From positions 1,302,001 to 1,366,000 of the forward strand of contig NZ_CP069362.1 of the NCBI RefSeq assembly GCF_029910535.1: a stretch of 64,000 nucleotides of DNA, written 5' to 3'. A program made the translations under genes and the position numbers. How positions within the stretch are numbered: position 1 is the stretch's first letter; every line of letters begins with the position of its first letter. Below the pieces are notes generated by a model. The model was not told where the DNA came from and ran no database searches. It saw only the letters and a program-made list of their open reading frames with translations. Shown in pieces: positions 248-58,044 of the stretch. Source of the stretch: Marinitoga aeolica (lineage in GTDB: Bacteria > Thermotogota > Thermotogae > Petrotogales > Petrotogaceae).

Positions 248-270
248 TTTAGTACTTTGACTACAAACCG
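247..270 (-). repeat. Fossil left end of the family-1 terminator element
   Basis: Read on the minus strand, CGGTTTGTAGTCAAAGT matches the family-1 left end CAGTTTGTAGACAAAGT at 15 of 17 positions. It lies immediately after a hairpin (273-292, AGGAGTTC/GAACTCCT) that has no U-tract of its own. That is the same arrangement as in the intact copies. The rest of the element is missing. Confidence 0.45.
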
Positions 271-6454: not shown

Positions 6455-6504
6455 ATTATATTTTGTACTTTTTGTAACTAATACAAGGATTTTATATTAA
6501 AAAA

Positions 6505-6526
6505 AATCGACTCTTTCGAGTCGATT
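6505..6526 (-). terminator. Distal copy of a duplicated terminator hairpin (with U-tract)
   Basis: A 9-bp stem (AATCGACTC/GAGTCGATT) is followed on the minus strand by an eight-T run. It is a direct duplicate of 6762-6783 with one loop difference. Confidence 0.85.
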
Positions 6527-6527
6527 A

Positions 6528-6760
6528 CAGACTGTTGACAAAATAAAATATGAAAAAATAATATGAGAGAATCCTTGGAAATTCCCGAAAAAATGTGAAT
6601 GGAGCCTGGCAATTTTGCATGGATGCAAAATTGAGCGAAACCGAACATGGATGTGAGTTTGAGCGCCAGGCAAGAATGAGCATTTTTGAGGAATAAGAAT
6701 TTTCACTGGATGAGCGAATATTATTTTGAATATTTTATTTTGCACTTTGCCTACAAATTG
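6528..6760 (-). mobile_element. Family-1 terminator element, copy 1
   Basis: This 233-bp element has imperfect terminal inverted repeats (CAATTTGTAGGCAAAGTG at its left end, CAGACTGTTGACAAA at the other) and long complementary arms. The core has a GCCTGGC/GCCAGGC closing stem and a 9-bp hairpin (AATTTTGCA, loop TCCA, TGCAAAATT). It lies between two copies of a terminator hairpin, 22 bp each with one mismatch. Oriented with the upstream minus-strand gene, it is about 96% identical to copy 2 by eye. It fills most of the 395-bp gap between the genes. Confidence 0.88.
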
Positions 6761-6761
6761 A

Positions 6762-6783
6762 AATCGACTCTTTTGAGTCGATT
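6762..6783 (-). terminator. Proximal copy of the duplicated terminator hairpin (no U-tract)
   Basis: This has the same 9-bp stem as 6505-6526, beginning at the stop codon of the upstream gene. It is followed only by TTTC and then by the element, so it has lost its own U-tract. Confidence 0.75.
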
Positions 6784-7492
6784 AGATGTATTTGAGTAAT
6801 ATTTCAAGTTTCTTTTCATCGAGTTTTGTTATTCCATTTTTATATTTGGCAAGAGTATTAAGATTGAACTTTAAAATAAAATGCTCTTTTAATTTATATT
6901 CAATAGGTTTATTATTTTCTGGTTTGAAAATAGTAATTTTATTATTGTCAATGGATAATAAATATGTTGATAATGAAGAGGATATAGCATTTTGATCAAA
7001 ATTTTCTAATTTACAAAGTGAATTATTCACTATTAAAAAATCCGGATTTTCTAGTCTGATATCCATTAATTGATACAATAATTCAGAAGAATTATTTAAA
7101 AAATAGAATTTTGTAGTTTTGAGATAAAGCGAATCGTTATTTTTTATTTTTTTAAGAGTATTTTCTTTTAGTAAATATACATCTTTTTTAATAATCGCAA
7201 TAAGGGGCACATCAAAAATTTCTGCAATTTCCGATATATAGCGTATATATTTTGATGGGCAGTTATTTAATGTGATAATACCCAGTTTGTTTTTGAAATT
7301 AAGGCAATTTCTTAATTGTTGAGTAAAATTGGATAAAGGTTTTAATTTAAAAAAATTCAACGATAATGTTCCAAAATTTATGAAGTAAAAATGAGATTCA
7401 TCATTTTTTATTTCTTTGAAAGGTTTATAATAAGCATGTTTTATTACTTTGAATAACCATTTTTCAATTAAAATATCAATTATATTTTTCAT
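6782..7492 (-). CDS. Hypothetical protein, 236 aa
   Basis: I do not recognise this protein. It is lysine- and asparagine-rich with no signal peptide and no convincing membrane helix. A central alternation of hydrophobic strands (LGIITLNNC, PLIAIIKKDVYLL, PDFLIVNNSL) suggests an alpha/beta fold. The start is set at ATG 7492 with AGGTGACC upstream; a GTG three codons earlier is possible. It overlaps the preceding gene by 17 bp and forms an operon with it and the aminopeptidase. Its stop codon is the first base triplet of the terminator hairpin. Confidence 0.65.
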   Translation of the reverse strand: MKNIIDILIEKWLFKVIKHAYYKPFKEIKNDESHFYFINFGTLSLNFFKLKPLSNFTQQLRNCLNFKNKLGIITLNNCPSKYIRYISEIAEIFDVPLIAIIKKDVYLLKENTLKKIKNNDSLYLKTTKFYFLNNSSELLYQLMDIRLENPDFLIVNNSLCKLENFDQNAISSSLSTYLLSIDNNKITIFKPENNKPIEYKLKEHFILKFNLNTLAKYKNGITKLDEKKLEILLKYI

Positions 7493-11617: not shown

Positions 11618-12823
11618 GTGATGCTTTTTGTTTTTTATTTCTTACATCTTTTAGCTTATTGGTATTTAATACCAATAAGTTTTGTTTTTTTGTATTTTAT
11701 CGTATATATATTTATAGAAAAAAGAATCAGGAGAATATTACATAAAGGTAATGCTTATACTACCAAACATTATAATCTGGAATATTCTGGTTTATTACGA
11801 GAATTGGATGAAATGATCAGAACATATTCATTATTATTATTAAGAGAGAGAGAAGGATTAAAAGAATATTATGAGAAATTTAATGCCATTTTTGATAGCA
11901 TAGGTTCAGGATTATTGGTTTTTAATGAAAATAATATTTTACAAAGATCCAATCATAAAGCTAAAGAAATTTTTCATAACATTACGCTGAAATATGGAAT
12001 GCAACTTTCAAAAATATTTATTAAAAGTGGAATAAAAATCACATTAGAATCTGGTATATATGAAGTATATTCTAAAAAATTAAGGAAAAATTTGCAATTG
12101 ATTATAAGTAAAAAAAGCAATTTTATAATTATAGCTGTAAATGATATTACTACATATAAAAAATTAAAAAAGAATCTTGAAAATGCCAGACATTTTGCAA
12201 GGCTTGGAGAAATACTTGCCAACGCTGCTCATGGTTTAAAAACACCTATAGCAAGGTTAAAAATGACGTTCCAAATGTATGAGCTTACAAATGATAAAAA
12301 CTATTTAAATCAAGTAAAAAATGAAATTGACAATATTCAAAACATAGTTCAGGAAACGCTAGAATTATTTAAAATACCAGAAGATATTAAATTGTTTAGT
12401 TTAAATCTGGTAATAAATGATGTGATAAATAATTTTAAAAAGGTATATCCTCAGATTAAATTTATTGTACAGGATATGGTAAATGTTGAAATCAAAAGTG
12501 ATGAATGGCTTTTTAAATCGGCAATGTTTAATGTGATTCAAAATTCTATAGATGCTGTTTTAATGAAAAAAGATCAAAGTATTATAATTGTAAAAATGTT
12601 GAGAAAAAAGGGATGTTATAAAATTATGTTAGCAGATAATGGAATAGGAATGGATAAAACCGAGAAGGAAAAATATTTGAAACCATTTTTTACTACAAAG
12701 GATAATGGTACGGGGCTTGGTACTGTTTTCTTAGAAAGATTTGTTATTTTTCAAAATGCGAGATTGCGGGTTAATTCAATAAAAGGCAAGGGGACAATAA
12801 TAAGTATAATTTTAGAAAAATAG
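11618..12823 (+). CDS. Membrane-bound sensor histidine kinase
   Basis: This protein of about 401 residues has two N-terminal membrane helices (residues 1-40), a PAS-like region (FDSIGSGLLVFNENNIL, near 92), a HisKA-type helix and a HATPase domain (N-box NVIQNSIDAV; DNGIGMD; GTGLGT). The phospho-histidine region reads AAHGLKTPIARL near residue 204, so the acidic residue normally following the histidine is a glycine. The start is uncertain. GTG 11618 has no ribosome binding site, and the frame stays open upstream into the preceding gene. No response regulator is adjacent. Its TAG stop lies inside the terminator hairpin. Confidence 0.85.
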   Translation: MMLFVFYFLHLLAYWYLIPISFVFLYFIVYIFIEKRIRRILHKGNAYTTKHYNLEYSGLLRELDEMIRTYSLLLLREREGLKEYYEKFNAIFDSIGSGLLVFNENNILQRSNHKAKEIFHNITLKYGMQLSKIFIKSGIKITLESGIYEVYSKKLRKNLQLIISKKSNFIIIAVNDITTYKKLKKNLENARHFARLGEILANAAHGLKTPIARLKMTFQMYELTNDKNYLNQVKNEIDNIQNIVQETLELFKIPEDIKLFSLNLVINDVINNFKKVYPQIKFIVQDMVNVEIKSDEWLFKSAMFNVIQNSIDAVLMKKDQSIIIVKMLRKKGCYKIMLADNGIGMDKTEKEKYLKPFFTTKDNGTGLGTVFLERFVIFQNARLRVNSIKGKGTIISIILEK

Positions 12824-12842
12824 TGAACTTATGTTCACTATT
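12819..12842 (+). terminator. Proximal copy of duplicated terminator hairpin
   Basis: A 10-bp stem (AATAGTGAAC/GTTCACTATT) contains the kinase stop codon. It has no U-tract because the element starts directly after it. It is identical over 24 bp to 13076-13099. Confidence 0.8.
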
Positions 12843-13075
12843 CAGTTTGTAGACAAAGTGCAAAATAAAATATTCAAAATAATATTCGTTCATCCGGTGA
12901 AAATTCTTATTCCTCAAAAATGCTCATTCTTGCCTGTCGCTCAAACTCACATCCGTGTTCGGTTTCGCTCAATTTTGCATCCATGCAAAATTGTCAGGCT
13001 CCATTCACATTTTTTCGGGAAATTTCAAGGATTCTCTCATATTATTTTTTCATATTTTATTTTGTCAACAGTCTG
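12843..13075 (+). mobile_element. Family-1 terminator element, copy 2 (type copy)
   Basis: This 233-bp element runs from CAGTTTGTAGACAAAG to CTTGTTGTC-like complement CAACAGTCTG. It is flanked by a perfect 24-bp direct duplication of a terminator hairpin. The arms pair over most of their length. The core carries a GCCTGTC/GTCAGGC closing stem with one mismatch, a small ACA-TCCG-TGT hairpin and the 9-bp AATTTTGCA hairpin with TCCA loop. It is oriented with the upstream kinase gene. No transposase is encoded. Confidence 0.9.
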
Positions 13076-13099
13076 AATAGTGAACTTATGTTCACTATT
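13076..13099 (+). terminator. Distal copy of duplicated terminator hairpin (with U-tract)
   Basis: This is identical to 12819-12842 but followed by TTTGTTTT, so it is the functional terminator of the pair. Confidence 0.85.
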
Positions 13100-23910: not shown

Positions 23911-23982
23911 TTAATCGCCTCCTGCGATAGTACTCATTAATATATTTCTTTTAAAAAAACTTTTTATCCTAAAAAAATAAAA

Positions 23983-23997
23983 TGCCGCATAGCGGCA
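23983..23997 (-). terminator. Distal copy of duplicated terminator hairpin
   Basis: A TGCCGC/GCGGCA stem is followed on the minus strand by TTTTATTTTTTT. It is part of a 19-bp perfect duplication (23979-23997 and 24237-24255). Confidence 0.85.
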
Positions 23998-24236
23998 CAG
24001 ACTGTTGACAAAGTATTTTCTAAAAAAATAATATGAACGAATACTTGAAAATTCCCGAAAAAATATGAATGAAGGCGGATAAAATCACATGGATGTGATT
24101 TTAAGCGAAACCAATCAGGATGTGCGTTTGAGCGACCGCCGGGAATGAATATTTTTGAGGATTTAGAATTTTCCGTATGAGTGAATATTATTTTTGAAAA
24201 TACTTTGTATTTAATTATAAAGTTTGTCTACAAACT
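23998..24236 (-). mobile_element. Family-1 terminator element, copy 4 (subfamily b)
   Basis: This element of about 239 bp is flanked by a perfect 19-bp duplication of a terminator hairpin. It is about 97% identical by eye to copy 10 (57783-58021) and clearly different from copies 1 and 2. Its closing stem is GGCGG/CCGCC and its main hairpin AAAATCACA-TCCA-TGTGATTTT. It is oriented with the upstream minus-strand gene. It occupies most of the gap between the genes. Confidence 0.88.
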
Positions 24237-24240
24237 AAAA

Positions 24241-24255
24241 TGCCGCATAGCGGCA
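24241..24255 (-). terminator. Proximal copy of duplicated terminator hairpin
   Basis: This has the same TGCCGC/GCGGCA stem, followed on the minus strand by TTTTA and then the element end AGTTTGTAG. Confidence 0.75.
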
Positions 24256-45009: not shown

Positions 45010-46230
45010 ATGAACTGCGAAAATGATATTTTATCTAATTTTGAGCTAATGGCAGAATTATCATTAAAATTAACAGGAGAAGAAAATGAAAAGGAATTTA
45101 TGAAAAAACTTTTATCTGTTGCAATTGAAAGTATTCCGGAAGCAGAAGCTGGAACAATTTGGCTTATTGATAATACGCTATATAAAGCGGTGGTGGGATA
45201 TAATTATAATGATGATGTTGTCGAAAATCTTGTTGTTCCCCTTGAAGATTCATATATATATAAATATATGAATTCTATGGATATTATAGAGATTGATTCG
45301 TTTGAAGAGTTTAAAAGCCCATCAAGATTGTTCAAAGAAAATTTAAAGGTATTACATGCAAAACATGAAACAATGATAACTCTTGCATATCCATTAAAAG
45401 TAGGAAATACTATAAAAGGACACATATACATAGATAATTTTCAATTAAAAAAATTCAGTGAGACCGCAAAAAAATCATTAAAAATATTTGGCAGTTTTGC
45501 TTCTACTTTTTTAACATTAAAATCTTTACGTGATGAAGAGAAAAAAGCAAATGAATTAAATAGAATATATTTAAGTTTTATTACTCATGAAGTAAGGACT
45601 CCATTAACTGCAATTTTAGGATATGCAGAGAGTATATTAAGAGGGAAAGAGGATTTTTCTAAAGAAGAAGTTGTGGATCTTGTAAAAAGAATATATTTAA
45701 GTTCTAAACACATGAATTCTTTAATTTCAGATTTGTCAACTTTTAATAAATTAAATAGAGAAGAAGAATTGAATATCAATGAATTACATTTAAAATTTCT
45801 TGTATATGAATCAATCTCTATTGTTGAACCGCAGTTGTCTCCAGATGTTGAATTGAATATTAAATTTGGCGAAAACATTCCTGAAATGATAGAAACAGAT
45901 CCCATTAAAATGAAACAAATATTGGTAAATATAGTGGGAAATGCAATAAAATACACGGATGAAGGATATGTTAATGTATATATAGATTTTGATAGAAAAA
46001 CAAAAGAGTATATTATCCTTGTAAAAGATAGTGGTCCAGGCATGCCAAAAGAAAAATTAGAAGAAATTTTTAAGCCTTTTGTTAGATTAGCTAAAAATAA
46101 ACCTGGTAGTGGTTTAGGGTTGGCCATTGTAAAAAAATTAATAGAAAAGCTAAAAGGAAGAATTCATATTAATTCTGAAATTAATAAAGGTACTACAGTA
46201 GAGCTTAGATTTCCACAACGTATAAGTTAA
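45010..46230 (+). CDS. GAF-domain sensor histidine kinase
   Basis: This soluble kinase of 406 residues has a GAF domain (about 30-165) followed by HisKA (FITHEVRTPLTAILGYAESI, His near 193) and HATPase (VNIVGNAIKYTDEG, KDSGPGMPKEKLEEIF, GSGLGLAIVKKLIE). No membrane helix is seen, so it senses a cytosolic ligand. No regulator is adjacent. The ATG at 45010 is 7 bases from GGAGG; GTG 45007 is an alternative. Confidence 0.9.
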   Translation: MNCENDILSNFELMAELSLKLTGEENEKEFMKKLLSVAIESIPEAEAGTIWLIDNTLYKAVVGYNYNDDVVENLVVPLEDSYIYKYMNSMDIIEIDSFEEFKSPSRLFKENLKVLHAKHETMITLAYPLKVGNTIKGHIYIDNFQLKKFSETAKKSLKIFGSFASTFLTLKSLRDEEKKANELNRIYLSFITHEVRTPLTAILGYAESILRGKEDFSKEEVVDLVKRIYLSSKHMNSLISDLSTFNKLNREEELNINELHLKFLVYESISIVEPQLSPDVELNIKFGENIPEMIETDPIKMKQILVNIVGNAIKYTDEGYVNVYIDFDRKTKEYIILVKDSGPGMPKEKLEEIFKPFVRLAKNKPGSGLGLAIVKKLIEKLKGRIHINSEINKGTTVELRFPQRIS

Positions 46231-46295
46231 TAATAAAATAATCAAAATAATATTCGCTCATATTGTTTTTTCATATTTTATTTTGTCAACAGTCT
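46231..46295 (+). repeat. Internally deleted family-1 element remnant (copy 5)
   Basis: The sequence joins a left-arm piece (AATAAAATAATCAAAATAAT, ATTCGCTCAT) directly to the right end (TTTTTTCATATTTTATTTTG, TCAACAGTCT). The core and the outermost left end are gone. An intact terminator follows directly, as in the complete copies. Confidence 0.75.
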
Positions 46296-46297
46296 AT

Positions 46298-48633: not shown

Positions 48634-48735
48634 ATTCAGACGCTTGATTGTTTTTCTGAGTTCGATTTCACTCAATTTTGCATCCGTACAAAATTGACCG
48701 GTTCCATATGTTATTTTTTTATCGATAATCTGAAT
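48634..48735 (+). repeat. Short structured repeat related to family 2 (copy 6)
   Basis: This 102-bp element is bounded by ATTCAG/CTGAAT inverted ends. It has the shared core segment TTCACTCAATTTTGCATCCG and a partly paired AATTTTG(C/T) hairpin. It lies just upstream of the riboswitch promoter. It is shorter and more decayed than the other copies. Confidence 0.6.
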
Positions 48736-48774: not shown

Positions 48775-48784
48775 TATTTTGTAG

Positions 48785-48881
48785 AACCGCCGGGGGAGCT
48801 CCTAGGCCGGAGCTGAGATTAAGGTGGAAGCCTTAGACCCCAGCACCTGATCCGGGTAATACCGGCGTAGGGAGAGCGGAG
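48785..48881 (+). ncRNA. TPP riboswitch (thi box)
   Basis: The leader has the conserved GGAGCTGAGATTAAGG and CACCTGATCCGGGTAATACC, then GGCGTAGGGA, the pyrimidine- and pyrophosphate-binding elements of TPP riboswitches. CCGC (48787) and GCGG (48876) close the P1 helix. It precedes a terminator and a thiamine-binding protein gene. TPP binding would favour termination. Confidence 0.95.
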
Positions 48882-48900
48882 TTAACAATAGATAAATTAA

Positions 48901-49943: not shown

Positions 49944-49967
49944 AACAGGCTATTTTGGTAGCCTGTT
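49944..49967 (+). terminator. Proximal copy of duplicated terminator hairpin
   Basis: The AACAGGCTA/TAGCCTGTT stem is extended by AACTG pairing with the element end CAGTT. It has no U-tract. It differs at two positions from the distal copy at 50281-50302. Confidence 0.75.
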
Positions 49968-50280
49968 CAGTTTGTAGGCAAAGTTTAAAATAAAATAATT
50001 GAAATTGGAATCAAAATAAAACTCATTCAAACGCTTGATTGCTAATCTGAAAAAATTAATCATTCCCGGTTTCCGTTCAGACTCGCATCCATGCTCGGCT
50101 TCACTCAAAATCACATCCATGTGATTTTGGAAACCTCCATTCATAATTTTTTCAGGCAATCTTCGAGTTTTCATTCATTTTATTTTTGAATCCCAATATA
50201 TTCAACTTCTTTTATATTCTTCCGGAAAATTTCATATATCTATATATTATTTTTTCATATTTTATTTTGTCAACAATTTG
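49968..50280 (+). mobile_element. Family-1 element, copy 7, with its core replaced by a family-2 element
   Basis: The left end (CAGTTTGTAGGCAAAGTT) and right end (TTTTATTTTGTCAACAATTT) are of family 1. The core has been replaced by a family-2 element at 50005-50195. The composite is flanked by duplicated terminator hairpins and oriented with the upstream thiamine-binding gene. Confidence 0.85.
50005..50195 (+). mobile_element. Family-2 structured element (nested)
   Basis: This 191-bp element has terminal inverted repeats TTGGAATCAAAATAAAA and its counterpart TTTTATTTTTGAATCCCAA. The core has a perfect GGTTTCC/GGAAACC closing stem, a GCA-TCCA-TGC hairpin and an AAAATCACA-TCCA-TGTGATTTT hairpin. 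It lies inside family-1 copy 7. The copy at 54231 is about 95% identical by eye. Confidence 0.85.
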
Positions 50281-50302
50281 ACAGGCTACTTTAGTAGCCT
50301 GT
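50281..50302 (+). terminator. Distal copy of duplicated terminator hairpin (with U-tract)
   Basis: The ACAGGCTAC/GTAGCCTGT stem is followed by TTTTTGTTTGG. Confidence 0.85.
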
Positions 50303-50327
50303 TTTTTGTTTGGAAATTAAAGTTTAC

Positions 50328-53399: not shown

Positions 53400-53632
53400 C
53401 AGTTTGTAGACAAAGTGCAAAATAAAATAATCAAAACAATATTCGCTCATCTAGTGAAAATTCTTATTCCTCAAAAATGCTCATTCTCGCCTGGCGCTCA
53501 AACTCGCATCCGTGCTCGGTTTCGCTCAATTTTGCATCCATGCGAAATTGTCAGGCTCCATTCGCATTTTTTCGGGAATTTTCAAAGATTCACTCATATT
53601 ATTTTTTAATATTTTATTTTGACAATAATTTA
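53400..53632 (+). mobile_element. Family-1 terminator element, copy 8
   Basis: This element of about 233 bp has an intact left end (CAGTTTGTAGACAAAGTG) and a decayed right end (GACAATAATTT). The core has GCCTGGC/GTCAGGC and a GCA-TCCG-TGC small hairpin, a compensated version of ACA-TGT in copies 1 and 2. No duplicated hairpin flanks it. It is oriented with the upstream kinase gene. Confidence 0.82.
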
Positions 53633-53779: not shown

Positions 53780-54139
53780 ATGCCAGGATACGGAAGAGGT
53801 CAGGGAAGATTTAGAAGAGGATGGATAGAATCTTTTGTTCTTTTAATAATAGCAGAACAACCTGCTCATGGTTATGAAATTGCAAATAAATTATCCGATT
53901 TTGGGGTTATTTTAAATGGAATAGGACAGATGGGAAATTTATATAGAACTTTATCAAAGTTAGAAGATATGGGACTTGTTGTTACTGACTGGGATACAAC
54001 AGATTCCGGTCCTTCAAAGAAAATATATAAAATTACAGAAGATGGTTTGATGTTCTTGAGGAATTCAAAAGAAGAATTTGAAGAATTTAAAAAAATTATA
54101 GAAGTTTTCATTCAAAGAGTATCTAAATTTGAAAAATAA
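53780..54139 (+). CDS. PadR-family transcriptional regulator
   Basis: This 119-residue winged-helix regulator has the PadR pattern WIESFVLLIIAEQPAHGYEI, MGNLYRTLSKLEDMGLVVTD and a C-terminal dimerisation helix. A glycine/arginine-rich leader (MPGYGRGQGRFRRG) precedes the domain. It stands alone, has GGAGG upstream, and its TAA stop is the first base of the terminator. Its targets are unknown. Confidence 0.88.
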   Translation: MPGYGRGQGRFRRGWIESFVLLIIAEQPAHGYEIANKLSDFGVILNGIGQMGNLYRTLSKLEDMGLVVTDWDTTDSGPSKKIYKITEDGLMFLRNSKEEFEEFKKIIEVFIQRVSKFEK

Positions 54140-54155
54140 GTGCCGAAAGGCACTT
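54138..54155 (+). terminator. Proximal copy of duplicated terminator hairpin
   Basis: The AAGTGCC/GGCACTT stem is followed by TTTTT. It is part of a perfect 30-bp duplication (54138-54167 and 54506-54535) that includes the U-tract and TTGACA. Confidence 0.85.
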
Positions 54156-54160
54156 TTTTT

Positions 54161-54505
54161 GTTGACAAAGTACAAAATAAAATAATCAAAATAATATTTG
54201 CTCATCCAGTGAAAATTCTAATCATCAAAATTGGAATCAAAATAAAACTCATTCAAACGCTTGATTGCTAATCTGAAAAAATTACTCATTCTCGGTTTCC
54301 GTTCAGACTCGCATCCATGCTCGGCTTCACTCAAAATCACATCCATATGATTTTGGAAACATCCATTCATAATTTTTTCAGGCAATCTTCGAGTTTTCAT
54401 TCGTTTTATTTTTGAATTCCAATAATATATTTGATTTAATTAGAGGAGGAATTTTCAAGGATTCACTCATATTATTTTTTCATATTTTATTTTGTCAACA
54501 GTCTG
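54161..54505 (+). mobile_element. Family-1 element, copy 9, with family-2 core
   Basis: The family-1 left arm (GTTGACAAAGTACAAAAT, to about 54230) and right arm (GGAATTTTCAAGGATTCACT onward, 54449-54505) enclose a family-2 element. The outer CAG of the left end is replaced by the target sequence. It is flanked by a 30-bp perfect duplication and oriented with padR. Confidence 0.85.
54231..54422 (+). mobile_element. Family-2 structured element (nested, second copy)
   Basis: This 192-bp element has the ends TTGGAATCAAAA and TTTTTGAATTCCAA. The core is nearly identical to 50005-50195, with one mismatch in the closing stem. It sits at a different point of the family-1 arm than the first nested copy. 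Confidence 0.85.
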
Positions 54506-54523
54506 AAGTGCCGAAAGGCACTT
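54506..54523 (+). terminator. Distal copy of duplicated terminator hairpin
   Basis: The same AAGTGCC/GGCACTT stem is followed by TTTTT, immediately upstream of the next promoter. Confidence 0.85.
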
Positions 54524-54529
54524 TTTTTG

Positions 54530-54558
54530 TTGACAGAGAAAAATAAATATGATATAAT
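54530..54558 (+). promoter_or_regulatory. Promoter of the UDP-sugar operon
   Basis: Consensus TTGACA (54530-54535) and TATAAT (54553-54558) are separated by 17 bp. The -35 box is inside the duplicated segment. Confidence 0.88.
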
Positions 54559-57020: not shown

Positions 57021-57769
57021 TTTCTGAATATGCACAAATTGATTATACAGTTGAAATGGGGCATAATATTGAAATTGAAGAAAATGTTATTATAGAAGAA
57101 AATGTAAAATTAGGAAATAATGTTGTTATTAAAAAGGATACTATTATAAAAAAGGGAAGCGTTATAGCAGATAATACAGTTTTGGGTAAAAAGCCATTTA
57201 AAGCTTCAAATTCTGCAGTAACTCAAGAAAAAGAATTAGAACCTTTAATAATAGGTGCATATGTAACAATAGGGGCAAATTGTGTGATATATAGAGGAGC
57301 AAAATTAGATAATTTTGTTTTTGTTGGAGATTTGGCAAGTATTAGAGAAGATGTAGAAATAGGTGAATATACTATTATTGGTAGAGGAGTTGCTGTAGAA
57401 AATAAAACTAAAATCGGGAAAAAGGTAAAAATAGAAACAAATGCATATATTACAGCATTATCTACAATAGAAGATTATTGTTTTGTAGCTCCTGAAGTTA
57501 CATTTACTAATGATAATTTTTTAGGTAGAACAGAAGAAAGAAAAAAATATTTTAAAGGAGCTACATTAAGAAAAGGAGCAAGAATAGGAGCAAATTCAAC
57601 AATTTTACCTGGAATTGAAATAGGTGAAGATGCACTTGTTGCTGCAGGTTCTGTGGTAACAAGAAATGTGCCTCCAAAGAAGATTGTTATGGGTAGTCCT
57701 GCAAAGATTTACAAGGACGTGCCAGAAGAACAATTACTTGAAAATCAAAGTTATTATAAAGAGGTGTAA
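57017..57769 (+). CDS. Left-handed beta-helix N-acetyltransferase (WbpD-like)
   Basis: This 250-residue protein is built of hexapeptide repeats (for example [40 protein letters not shown]) with [20 protein letters not shown] at the C-terminus. In the WbpA-B-E-D pathway such enzymes acetylate the 3-amino group of UDP-2-acetamido-3-amino-glucuronate. The aminotransferase step (WbpE) is missing here. Its stop codon lies inside a terminator palindrome. Confidence 0.87.
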
Positions 57770-57782
57770 TTTTTACACCTCT
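57760..57782. terminator. Proximal copy of duplicated bidirectional terminator
   Basis: The AGAGGTGTAA/TTACACCTCT stem holds the acetyltransferase stop codon. It is part of a perfect 23-bp duplication with 58022-58044. Confidence 0.85.
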
Positions 57783-58021
57783 CAGTTTGTAGACAAACTC
57801 AAAATTAAATACAAAGTATTTTCAAAAATAATATTCACTCATACGGAAAATTCTAAATCCTCAAAAATATTCATTCCCGGCGGGCGCTCAAACGCACATC
57901 CTGATTGGTTTCGCTTAAAATCACATCCATGTGATTTTATCCGCCTTCATTCATATTTTTTCGGGAATTTTCAAGTATTCGTTCATATTATTTTTTTAGA
58001 AAACACTTTGTCAACAGTCTG
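57783..58021 (+). mobile_element. Family-1 terminator element, copy 10 (subfamily b)
   Basis: This 239-bp element runs from CAGTTTGTAGACAAACTC to TTTGTCAACAGTCTG. It splits the shared terminator of two convergent genes, each of which keeps a full copy of the 23-bp palindrome. Its GGCGG/CCGCC stem and AAAATCACA hairpin match copy 4. It fills most of the gap between the genes. Confidence 0.9.
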
Positions 58022-58044
58022 AGAGGTGTAATTTTTACACCTCT
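58022..58044. terminator. Distal copy of duplicated bidirectional terminator (with U-tract)
   Basis: This is identical to 57760-57782 and followed by TTTTTT on the plus strand. On the minus strand it carries the stop codon of the epimerase gene. Confidence 0.85.

Follow-up and report, generated by a model that had tools for sequence, protein, structure and literature searches.

Elements and flanking hairpins in the window

The window analysed here is a stretch of 64,000 nucleotides (G000:C1:1302001-1366000) within a single-contig genome of 2.44 Mb, taken here to belong to Marinitoga in accordance with the initial annotation. It contains six elements of 233-348 bp, each flanked by two direct copies of a terminator hairpin (Table 1), and all six had been proposed in the initial annotation. 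The perfect duplications reported there were recovered at copies 12843 (24 bp), 23998 (19-20 bp) and 57783 (23 bp), as were two mismatches at copy 49968, over 23 bp, and one mismatch at copy 6528, over 24 bp and not 22 bp. A further perfect duplication, of 30 bp at 54138/54506, did not hold: this repeat consists of a hairpin of about 20 bp, a U-tract and GTTGACA, which resembles the element end. The U-tract is present in both flanks of copy 54158 and the left end of the element lacks CAG, so that there is no clean duplication. In most copies, as initially described, the U-tract is kept only by the distal hairpin, because the duplication ends at the hairpin foot. At 54138-54167 and 54506-54535, the target U-tract and a promoter -35 element (TTTGTTGACA) are similar to the element end TTTGTAGACA. 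The left end of copy 54158 seems to have been swapped for flank sequence, perhaps by way of this microhomology between the U-tract/-35 region and the element end.

Table 1. Elements, flanking hairpins and TwoAYGGAY matches, with their positions in the window
Feature	Position	Strand	Remarks
Exception: solo left end CGGTTTGTAGTCAAAG flanked by unrelated hairpins	255..270	-	
Distal hairpin copy TAATCGACTCGAAAGAGTCGATTT	6504..6527	-	24 bp
MITE copy, 233 bp	6528..6760	-	24-bp flanking duplication
TwoAYGGAY (RF01731), interior of MITE 6528	6562-6709	+	45.6 bits, passes gathering score
Proximal hairpin copy TAATCGACTCAAAAGAGTCGATTT, 1 mismatch	6761..6784	-	single-hairpin empty site in G003
Proximal terminator hairpin copy AATAGTGAACTTATGTTCACTATT (left target duplication)	12819..12842	+	24 bp, identical to 13076-13099
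IS1182-type MITE, 233 bp, ends CAGTTTGTAGACAAAG / TTTGTCAACAGTCTG	12843..13075	+	ends match autonomous IS in G001 and G067/G070
Rfam TwoAYGGAY (RF01731) match, interior of MITE 12843	12894..13041	-	41.2 bits, below gathering score of 43
Distal terminator hairpin copy, then U-tract	13076..13099	+	same 24 bp as 12819-12842
Distal hairpin copy TGCCGCTATGCGGCATTTT	23979..23997	-	duplication of 19-20 bp, perfect
MITE copy, subtype of about 239 bp	23998..24236	-	between hairpin copies of 19-20 bp
Proximal hairpin copy of MITE 23998	24237..24255	-	perfect duplication
Exception: internally deleted MITE remnant, truncated right-end copy	46225..46296	+	right end followed by hairpin
Proximal hairpin ACAGGCTATTTTGGTAGCCTGTT	49945..49967	+	23 bp
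MITE copy, 313 bp	49968..50280	+	23-bp flanking duplication
TwoAYGGAY (RF01731), interior of MITE 49968	50022-50177	-	44.2 bits, passes gathering score
Distal hairpin ACAGGCTACTTTAGTAGCCTGTT, 2 mismatches	50281..50303	+	23 bp
Exception: MITE copy with degenerate right end, no hairpin flanks	53400..53625	+	93% identical
Proximal hairpin AAGTGCCGAAAGGCACTT plus U-tract	54138..54157	+	
MITE copy, CAG missing from left end	54158..54505	+	
Distal hairpin of MITE 54158	54506..54525	+	single orthologous hairpin in G006
Proximal hairpin AGAGGTGTAATTTTTACACCTCT	57760..57782	+	23 bp, perfect
MITE copy, 239 bp	57783..58021	+	
Distal hairpin, perfect copy, then U-tract	58022..58044	+	

Distribution of the elements in the genome and in the sister species

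Based on end patterns and similarity, the genome of the window (G000) carries dozens of copies of 131-401 bp, mostly of 231-240 bp, and the sister species (G003) carries a comparable set, also of dozens of copies. A copy table was built for G000 from end-pattern matches and retrieved stretches. Clear hairpin duplications of 17-28 bp, 10 of them perfect, were found in 14 of the 29 tabulated copies with paired ends, the rest having mostly diverged or one-sided hairpins; most copies with intact ends have hairpin duplications, which agrees with the initial proposal. When 32 duplications were pooled, dyad complementarity was observed at 250 of 350 positions, versus 99 +/- 8 (maximum 127) in 2000 shuffles, with a sharp peak of pairing at zero offset, and a chance origin of the hairpin duplications is excluded. 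One copy of the sister species lies at a non-palindromic site and is flanked by a 9-bp duplication (ATTATATTT). The copies of G000 show a 10:1 orientation bias.

Insertion sequences of the IS1182 family have the same ends as these elements (CAGTTTGTAGACAAAG / CAGACTGTTGACAAA). The elements are short, multicopy and devoid of a transposase gene, they share their ends with autonomous IS and they have target duplications; judged from these features, they are classified as MITEs, non-autonomous derivatives of the IS1182 family predicted to have kept the transposase-binding ends and lost the gene. No autonomous copy was found in G000, either among pairs of ends separated by at most 5 kb or in a PF13751 search, and no IS1182-type transposase was detected in G000 or G003. 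A right end followed by a left end about 3.4 kb away, in G006:C6 and G001:C27, was interpreted not as one transposon but as two elements, of which one is a decayed 401-bp copy.

Single copies flanked by two different hairpins were also observed, at L039 (G000), L195 (G070), L167 near 3626 (G003) and L298 (Romboutsia). They are probably products of recombination between copies, and would be useful markers of deletions or inversions.

Autonomous elements with the same ends in Thermotogota

A transposase gene with the same ends, which the initial annotation had suggested looking for, was found in a congener (G001) and in another Thermotogota family (G067/G070). About 15 autonomous copies are present in G001. 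Their ends (CAGATTGTAGACAAACC and CAGACTGTTGACAAACC) lie repeatedly at a distance of about 80-310 bp from the ends of contigs, the pattern that a multicopy IS collapsed in assembly would give. Just inside the left end is the 3' portion of a transposase gene, encoding the C-terminal part of PF13751, and at the right end is the start of an ORF. Pairing of contigs on their flanks yielded 12 pairable copies, all 12 with a perfect duplication of 18-31 bp that is exactly one inverted repeat, and the remaining unpaired intact ends likewise adjoin hairpins.

In the complete genomes G067 and G070, an IS of 1.58 kb with these ends is present in nine copies; its terminal inverted repeats of about 16 bp (CAGACTGTTGACAAAG..TTTGTCAACAATCTG, bounding about 1578 bp) enclose a single transposase gene. 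Hairpin duplications flank six of the nine, a seventh lies between two different hairpins, and the other two, at non-palindromic sites, are flanked by duplications of 10 bp (ATCTTATTAG) and 7 bp (CACTTTG). The G067 transposase matches NF033551 (478.5 bits, cut-off 270) as well as PF13751, PF05598 and PF01609, and the NCBIfam and Pfam models thus assign the predicted mobilising enzyme to the IS1182-family DDE transposases. The autonomous copies have no consistent orientation relative to the U-tract (5:4 in G001, 2:5 in Bacillus sp. OV166).

Empty sites and a target within an ORF

For five insertion sites of G001, the orthologous locus of G006 is uninterrupted and has one hairpin at the insertion point, except that the empty site in a coding sequence is a single imperfect palindrome rather than a hairpin. 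For the window, where the orthologous sites of copies 12843, 23998 and 57783 have diverged, the empty-site evidence comes from copies 6528 (single hairpin in G003) and 54158 (single hairpin in G006). Empty orthologous sites have one hairpin and not two in tandem, as the initial annotation had required of a mobile element that inserts at terminator hairpins and duplicates them whole; its proposal is supported by these sites, by the genome-wide duplications and by the autonomous IS with the same ends. Each duplication is a genuine target-site duplication and consists of one inverted repeat from foot to foot.

At the target site within an ORF (ATACTTCTATAGAAGTAT), the frame is open across the joined site, and ungapped conserved alignments were obtained with 3 of 4 relatives. 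Since one target lies within an ORF, the target need not be a terminator, and what is recognised appears to be the DNA palindrome in general.

Breadth across phyla and geometry of the duplications

Species genomes were scanned once with the G067 transposase. Nearly all relatives were found in Firmicutes (53-77% identity, many multicopy), where complete copies measure 1525-1738 bp. When the element ends are set at CAG/CTG, hairpin duplications flank 12 of 12 copies in Bacillus sp. OV166 and 13 of 13 in Neobacillus drentensis, and are also present in B. massiliglaciei, Romboutsia, Lysinibacillus and Ureibacillus. Single plasmid copies have hairpin duplications of 30 bp in Sutcliffiella, 22 bp in Enterococcus faecium and 20 bp in Rhizobium, where the relative shares 41% identity; no hairpin duplication was found at two ISEfa7-like copies of E. 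faecium. Autonomous IS1182 elements with the same ends thus duplicate palindromes in Thermotogota and Firmicutes, as do the single Rhizobium and Enterococcus copies. At ISCfr1 (L335, on a Citrobacter plasmid), a distant IS1182 member (27% identity), the duplication is itself a palindrome of 6 bp, CGGCCG, which suggests that a palindrome preference may lie deeper in the IS1182 family.

The pool comprises 77 palindromic duplications of 17-33 bp, of which 66 are perfect; palindrome targeting is known in some IS1182 members. Dyad pairing is 82% at offset 0, as against 23-32% at each of the offsets 1-5, and the duplications share their centre with the palindrome at single-base accuracy. In 71 of the 77 targets, the stem is bordered by a T-rich or A-rich flank of the kind typical of terminators. 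Many duplications fall short of the longest possible stem by a few A:T pairs, which means that the cut is not in every case made at the maximal foot. Insertions at non-palindromic sites are few and have duplications of 7-10 bp, clean short duplications having been seen only three times (7, 9 and 10 bp). The initial view that the target is no fixed sequence holds for the palindromes, and is to be completed by these insertions.

Terminators and their stems are also the targets of group IIC introns. In Thermoanaerobacter wiegelii (L233, 2341-2915), group II intron matches end beside an IS1182 left end, whose terminal sequence is unlike that of the sister copy L234. Group IIC introns and IS1182 elements may compete for terminator targets.

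TwoAYGGAY motif in the interior of the elements

The interior of the MITE matches the full-length RF01731 (TwoAYGGAY) model, and TwoAYGGAY also occurs at L074, L078, L081, L084 and L063. Among 31 genomes searched, it was found only in the genus of the window, with 24 matches in G000. In G005 and G004, the same core lies inside an unrelated MITE type with ends like TAGGGTGTCCAATTAGTAAAG. TwoAYGGAY was published as a candidate structured RNA and not as part of a mobile element (PMC2864571); unlike in that description, it is here cargo of at least two MITE types, and may be mobile-element cargo rather than a cis-regulator. A TwoAYGGAY-like remnant was also observed directly upstream of a TPP riboswitch (74.6 bits) in the window (48655-48718 and 48782-48891).

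Proposed mechanism and alternative explanations

According to textbooks, every DDE transposase makes duplications of one fixed length. The duplications described here measure between 7 and 33 bp, a length that can be predicted from the palindrome at the target, and this points to a DNA structure being recognised. The best model, which we consider very probable, is that these MITEs and IS are IS1182-derived and that their DDE transposase transfers the strands to both 5' feet of an extruded cruciform, the palindrome being copied by repair. A DDE transposase would attach each 3' end of the element to a 5' end of the sequence that is to be duplicated. In this case, the transposase would recognise the extruded palindrome, as a cruciform or as a hairpin in transiently melted DNA, and the two 3' ends would be joined to the two hairpins that face each other, in each at its 5' foot. 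The four-way junction would bring the feet together at any stem length, and gap repair would therefore copy the whole palindrome, the length of the duplication following the target. On linear DNA, the same spacing of active sites would give an ordinary short duplication. Such a scheme would explain the variable length, the exact centring and the duplications of 7-10 bp on non-palindromic DNA. Terminators would be hit most often because no strong palindromes are commoner and because an insertion does no harm there, the distal copy retaining the U-tract and termination being preserved.

Several observations count against this model: G000 and G003 lack a detected IS1182-type transposase, the current mobility of the MITEs being putative there; the 10:1 orientation bias of the G000 MITEs is not predicted by a symmetric model; copies with different hairpins (L039, L195, L298) are explained only by assumed recombination; and the cut lies inside the maximal stem foot in many duplications, while short duplications number only three.

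It is improbable that the target is the terminator RNA hairpin or a paused transcription complex instead of a DNA structure. The U-tract or A-tract beside the stem in 71 of 77 targets and the orientation bias among the G000 MITEs would fit such a target, but one insertion lies in a palindrome within a coding sequence, the autonomous copies occur in both orientations (G001 5:4, OV166 2:5), and symmetric joining of both DNA strands is not simply explained by a one-strand RNA signal. From the initial alternative of the palindrome or its transcript, the in-ORF insertion retains the palindrome, and this insertion and the two orientations speak against the transcript.

Loosely controlled long staggered cuts in duplex DNA, with terminators hit only as neutral intergenic DNA, are very unlikely. 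IS1549/IS1634 have been reported to make long duplications of variable length, 8-514 bp (PMC2266710), and the elements studied here are mainly intergenic; however, the duplications end at the palindrome feet (82% dyad pairing at offset 0 versus about 25% elsewhere), non-palindromic sites give duplications of 7-10 bp and not long ones, and one palindrome was hit within an ORF. The transposase moreover belongs to the IS1182 family and not to IS1634, so that an IS1634/IS4-type origin was dropped, and loose staggering as stated is refuted.

That the two hairpins pre-existed or are part of the element, the latter merely lying between tandem terminators, is hardly credible and was rejected: a few copies do have different hairpins on either side (L039, L195, L298), but empty sites have a single hairpin (five G001 loci and window copies 6528 and 54158), and the hairpin sequence differs at every locus whereas the element is constant. 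Insertion by a casposon-type integrase similar to Cas1, or by a group IIC intron, can be practically dismissed. Cas1 does integrate at leader-repeat boundaries with duplication of the whole repeat (the analogy initially drawn with Cas1-Cas2, which is not needed), and terminator stems are also targeted by group IIC introns, but an IS1182 DDE transposase is all that the autonomous element with these ends encodes, without Cas1 or intron reverse transcriptase. No intron was found by Rfam in the element, and terminal inverted repeats and target duplications are foreign to group II introns.

On balance, it is rather probable that a large multi-phylum IS1182 clade possesses a shape-sensing DDE transposase with strand transfer at four-way junctions, a duplication equal to the palindrome and a short-stagger fallback on linear DNA. 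If so, these elements would be natural in vivo reporters of cruciform extrusion. Cruciform formation at ordinary terminators in living cells becomes directly testable. Copying the terminator instead of breaking it would explain genome colonisation with low damage, and a tool that places cargo immediately downstream of genes can be envisaged.

Comparison with known systems

Hairpin targeting by IS1182 elements is already known, and these elements are described as having or lacking target duplications and as sometimes recognising DNA structure (2025 summary, PMC12056078). In the literature surveyed, nothing was found on MITEs with terminator hairpins; likewise, the rule that the duplication equals the palindrome, the cross-phylum breadth, the linear-DNA mode and the MITE family were not encountered in the readable literature, ISfinder and the main IS review lying outside this survey. 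According to the main text of its report, nearly all copies of ISCbo5 (IS1182 family, Clostridium botulinum group III / C. novyi) lie at gene-end hairpins, described as a 'surrounding hairpin' and probably terminators, and its behaviour is probably the same as that of the elements described here; that main text gives no duplication-length rule, empty-site test, non-palindromic mode or MITE (PMC3098183). MITEPye1 of Paracoccus yeei is likewise gene-less with IS1182-type ends but, unlike the MITEs of the present study, has 4-bp direct repeats and a low copy number of 1-3 (PMC11578231). IS1549 and IS1634 (IS4-related) share long target duplications of variable length, whereas they have a transposase of another family and no palindrome rule has been reported for them (PMC2266710).

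A similar target choice is known from IS1272/TnSha1 (IS1182 family, staphylococci), which inserts in hairpins and deletes them; there too, inverted repeats are targeted whatever their sequence, terminators being frequent among them, and the palindrome structure is recognised (PMC5678879, PMC4923244). A cruciform 5'-foot pathway with duplication of the whole hairpin was drawn in 2017 as a hypothetical pathway in place of deletion (pathway b, Fig 13, PMC5678879), and the present elements give concrete support to this pathway, previously only drawn. Stem-loop replacement of the IS1272 type does not apply to them, a hairpin being present on both sides, versus deletion without target duplication: by its published description, IS1272 removes all or part of the stem-loop and makes no duplication, whereas the elements described here duplicate the stem-loop whole.
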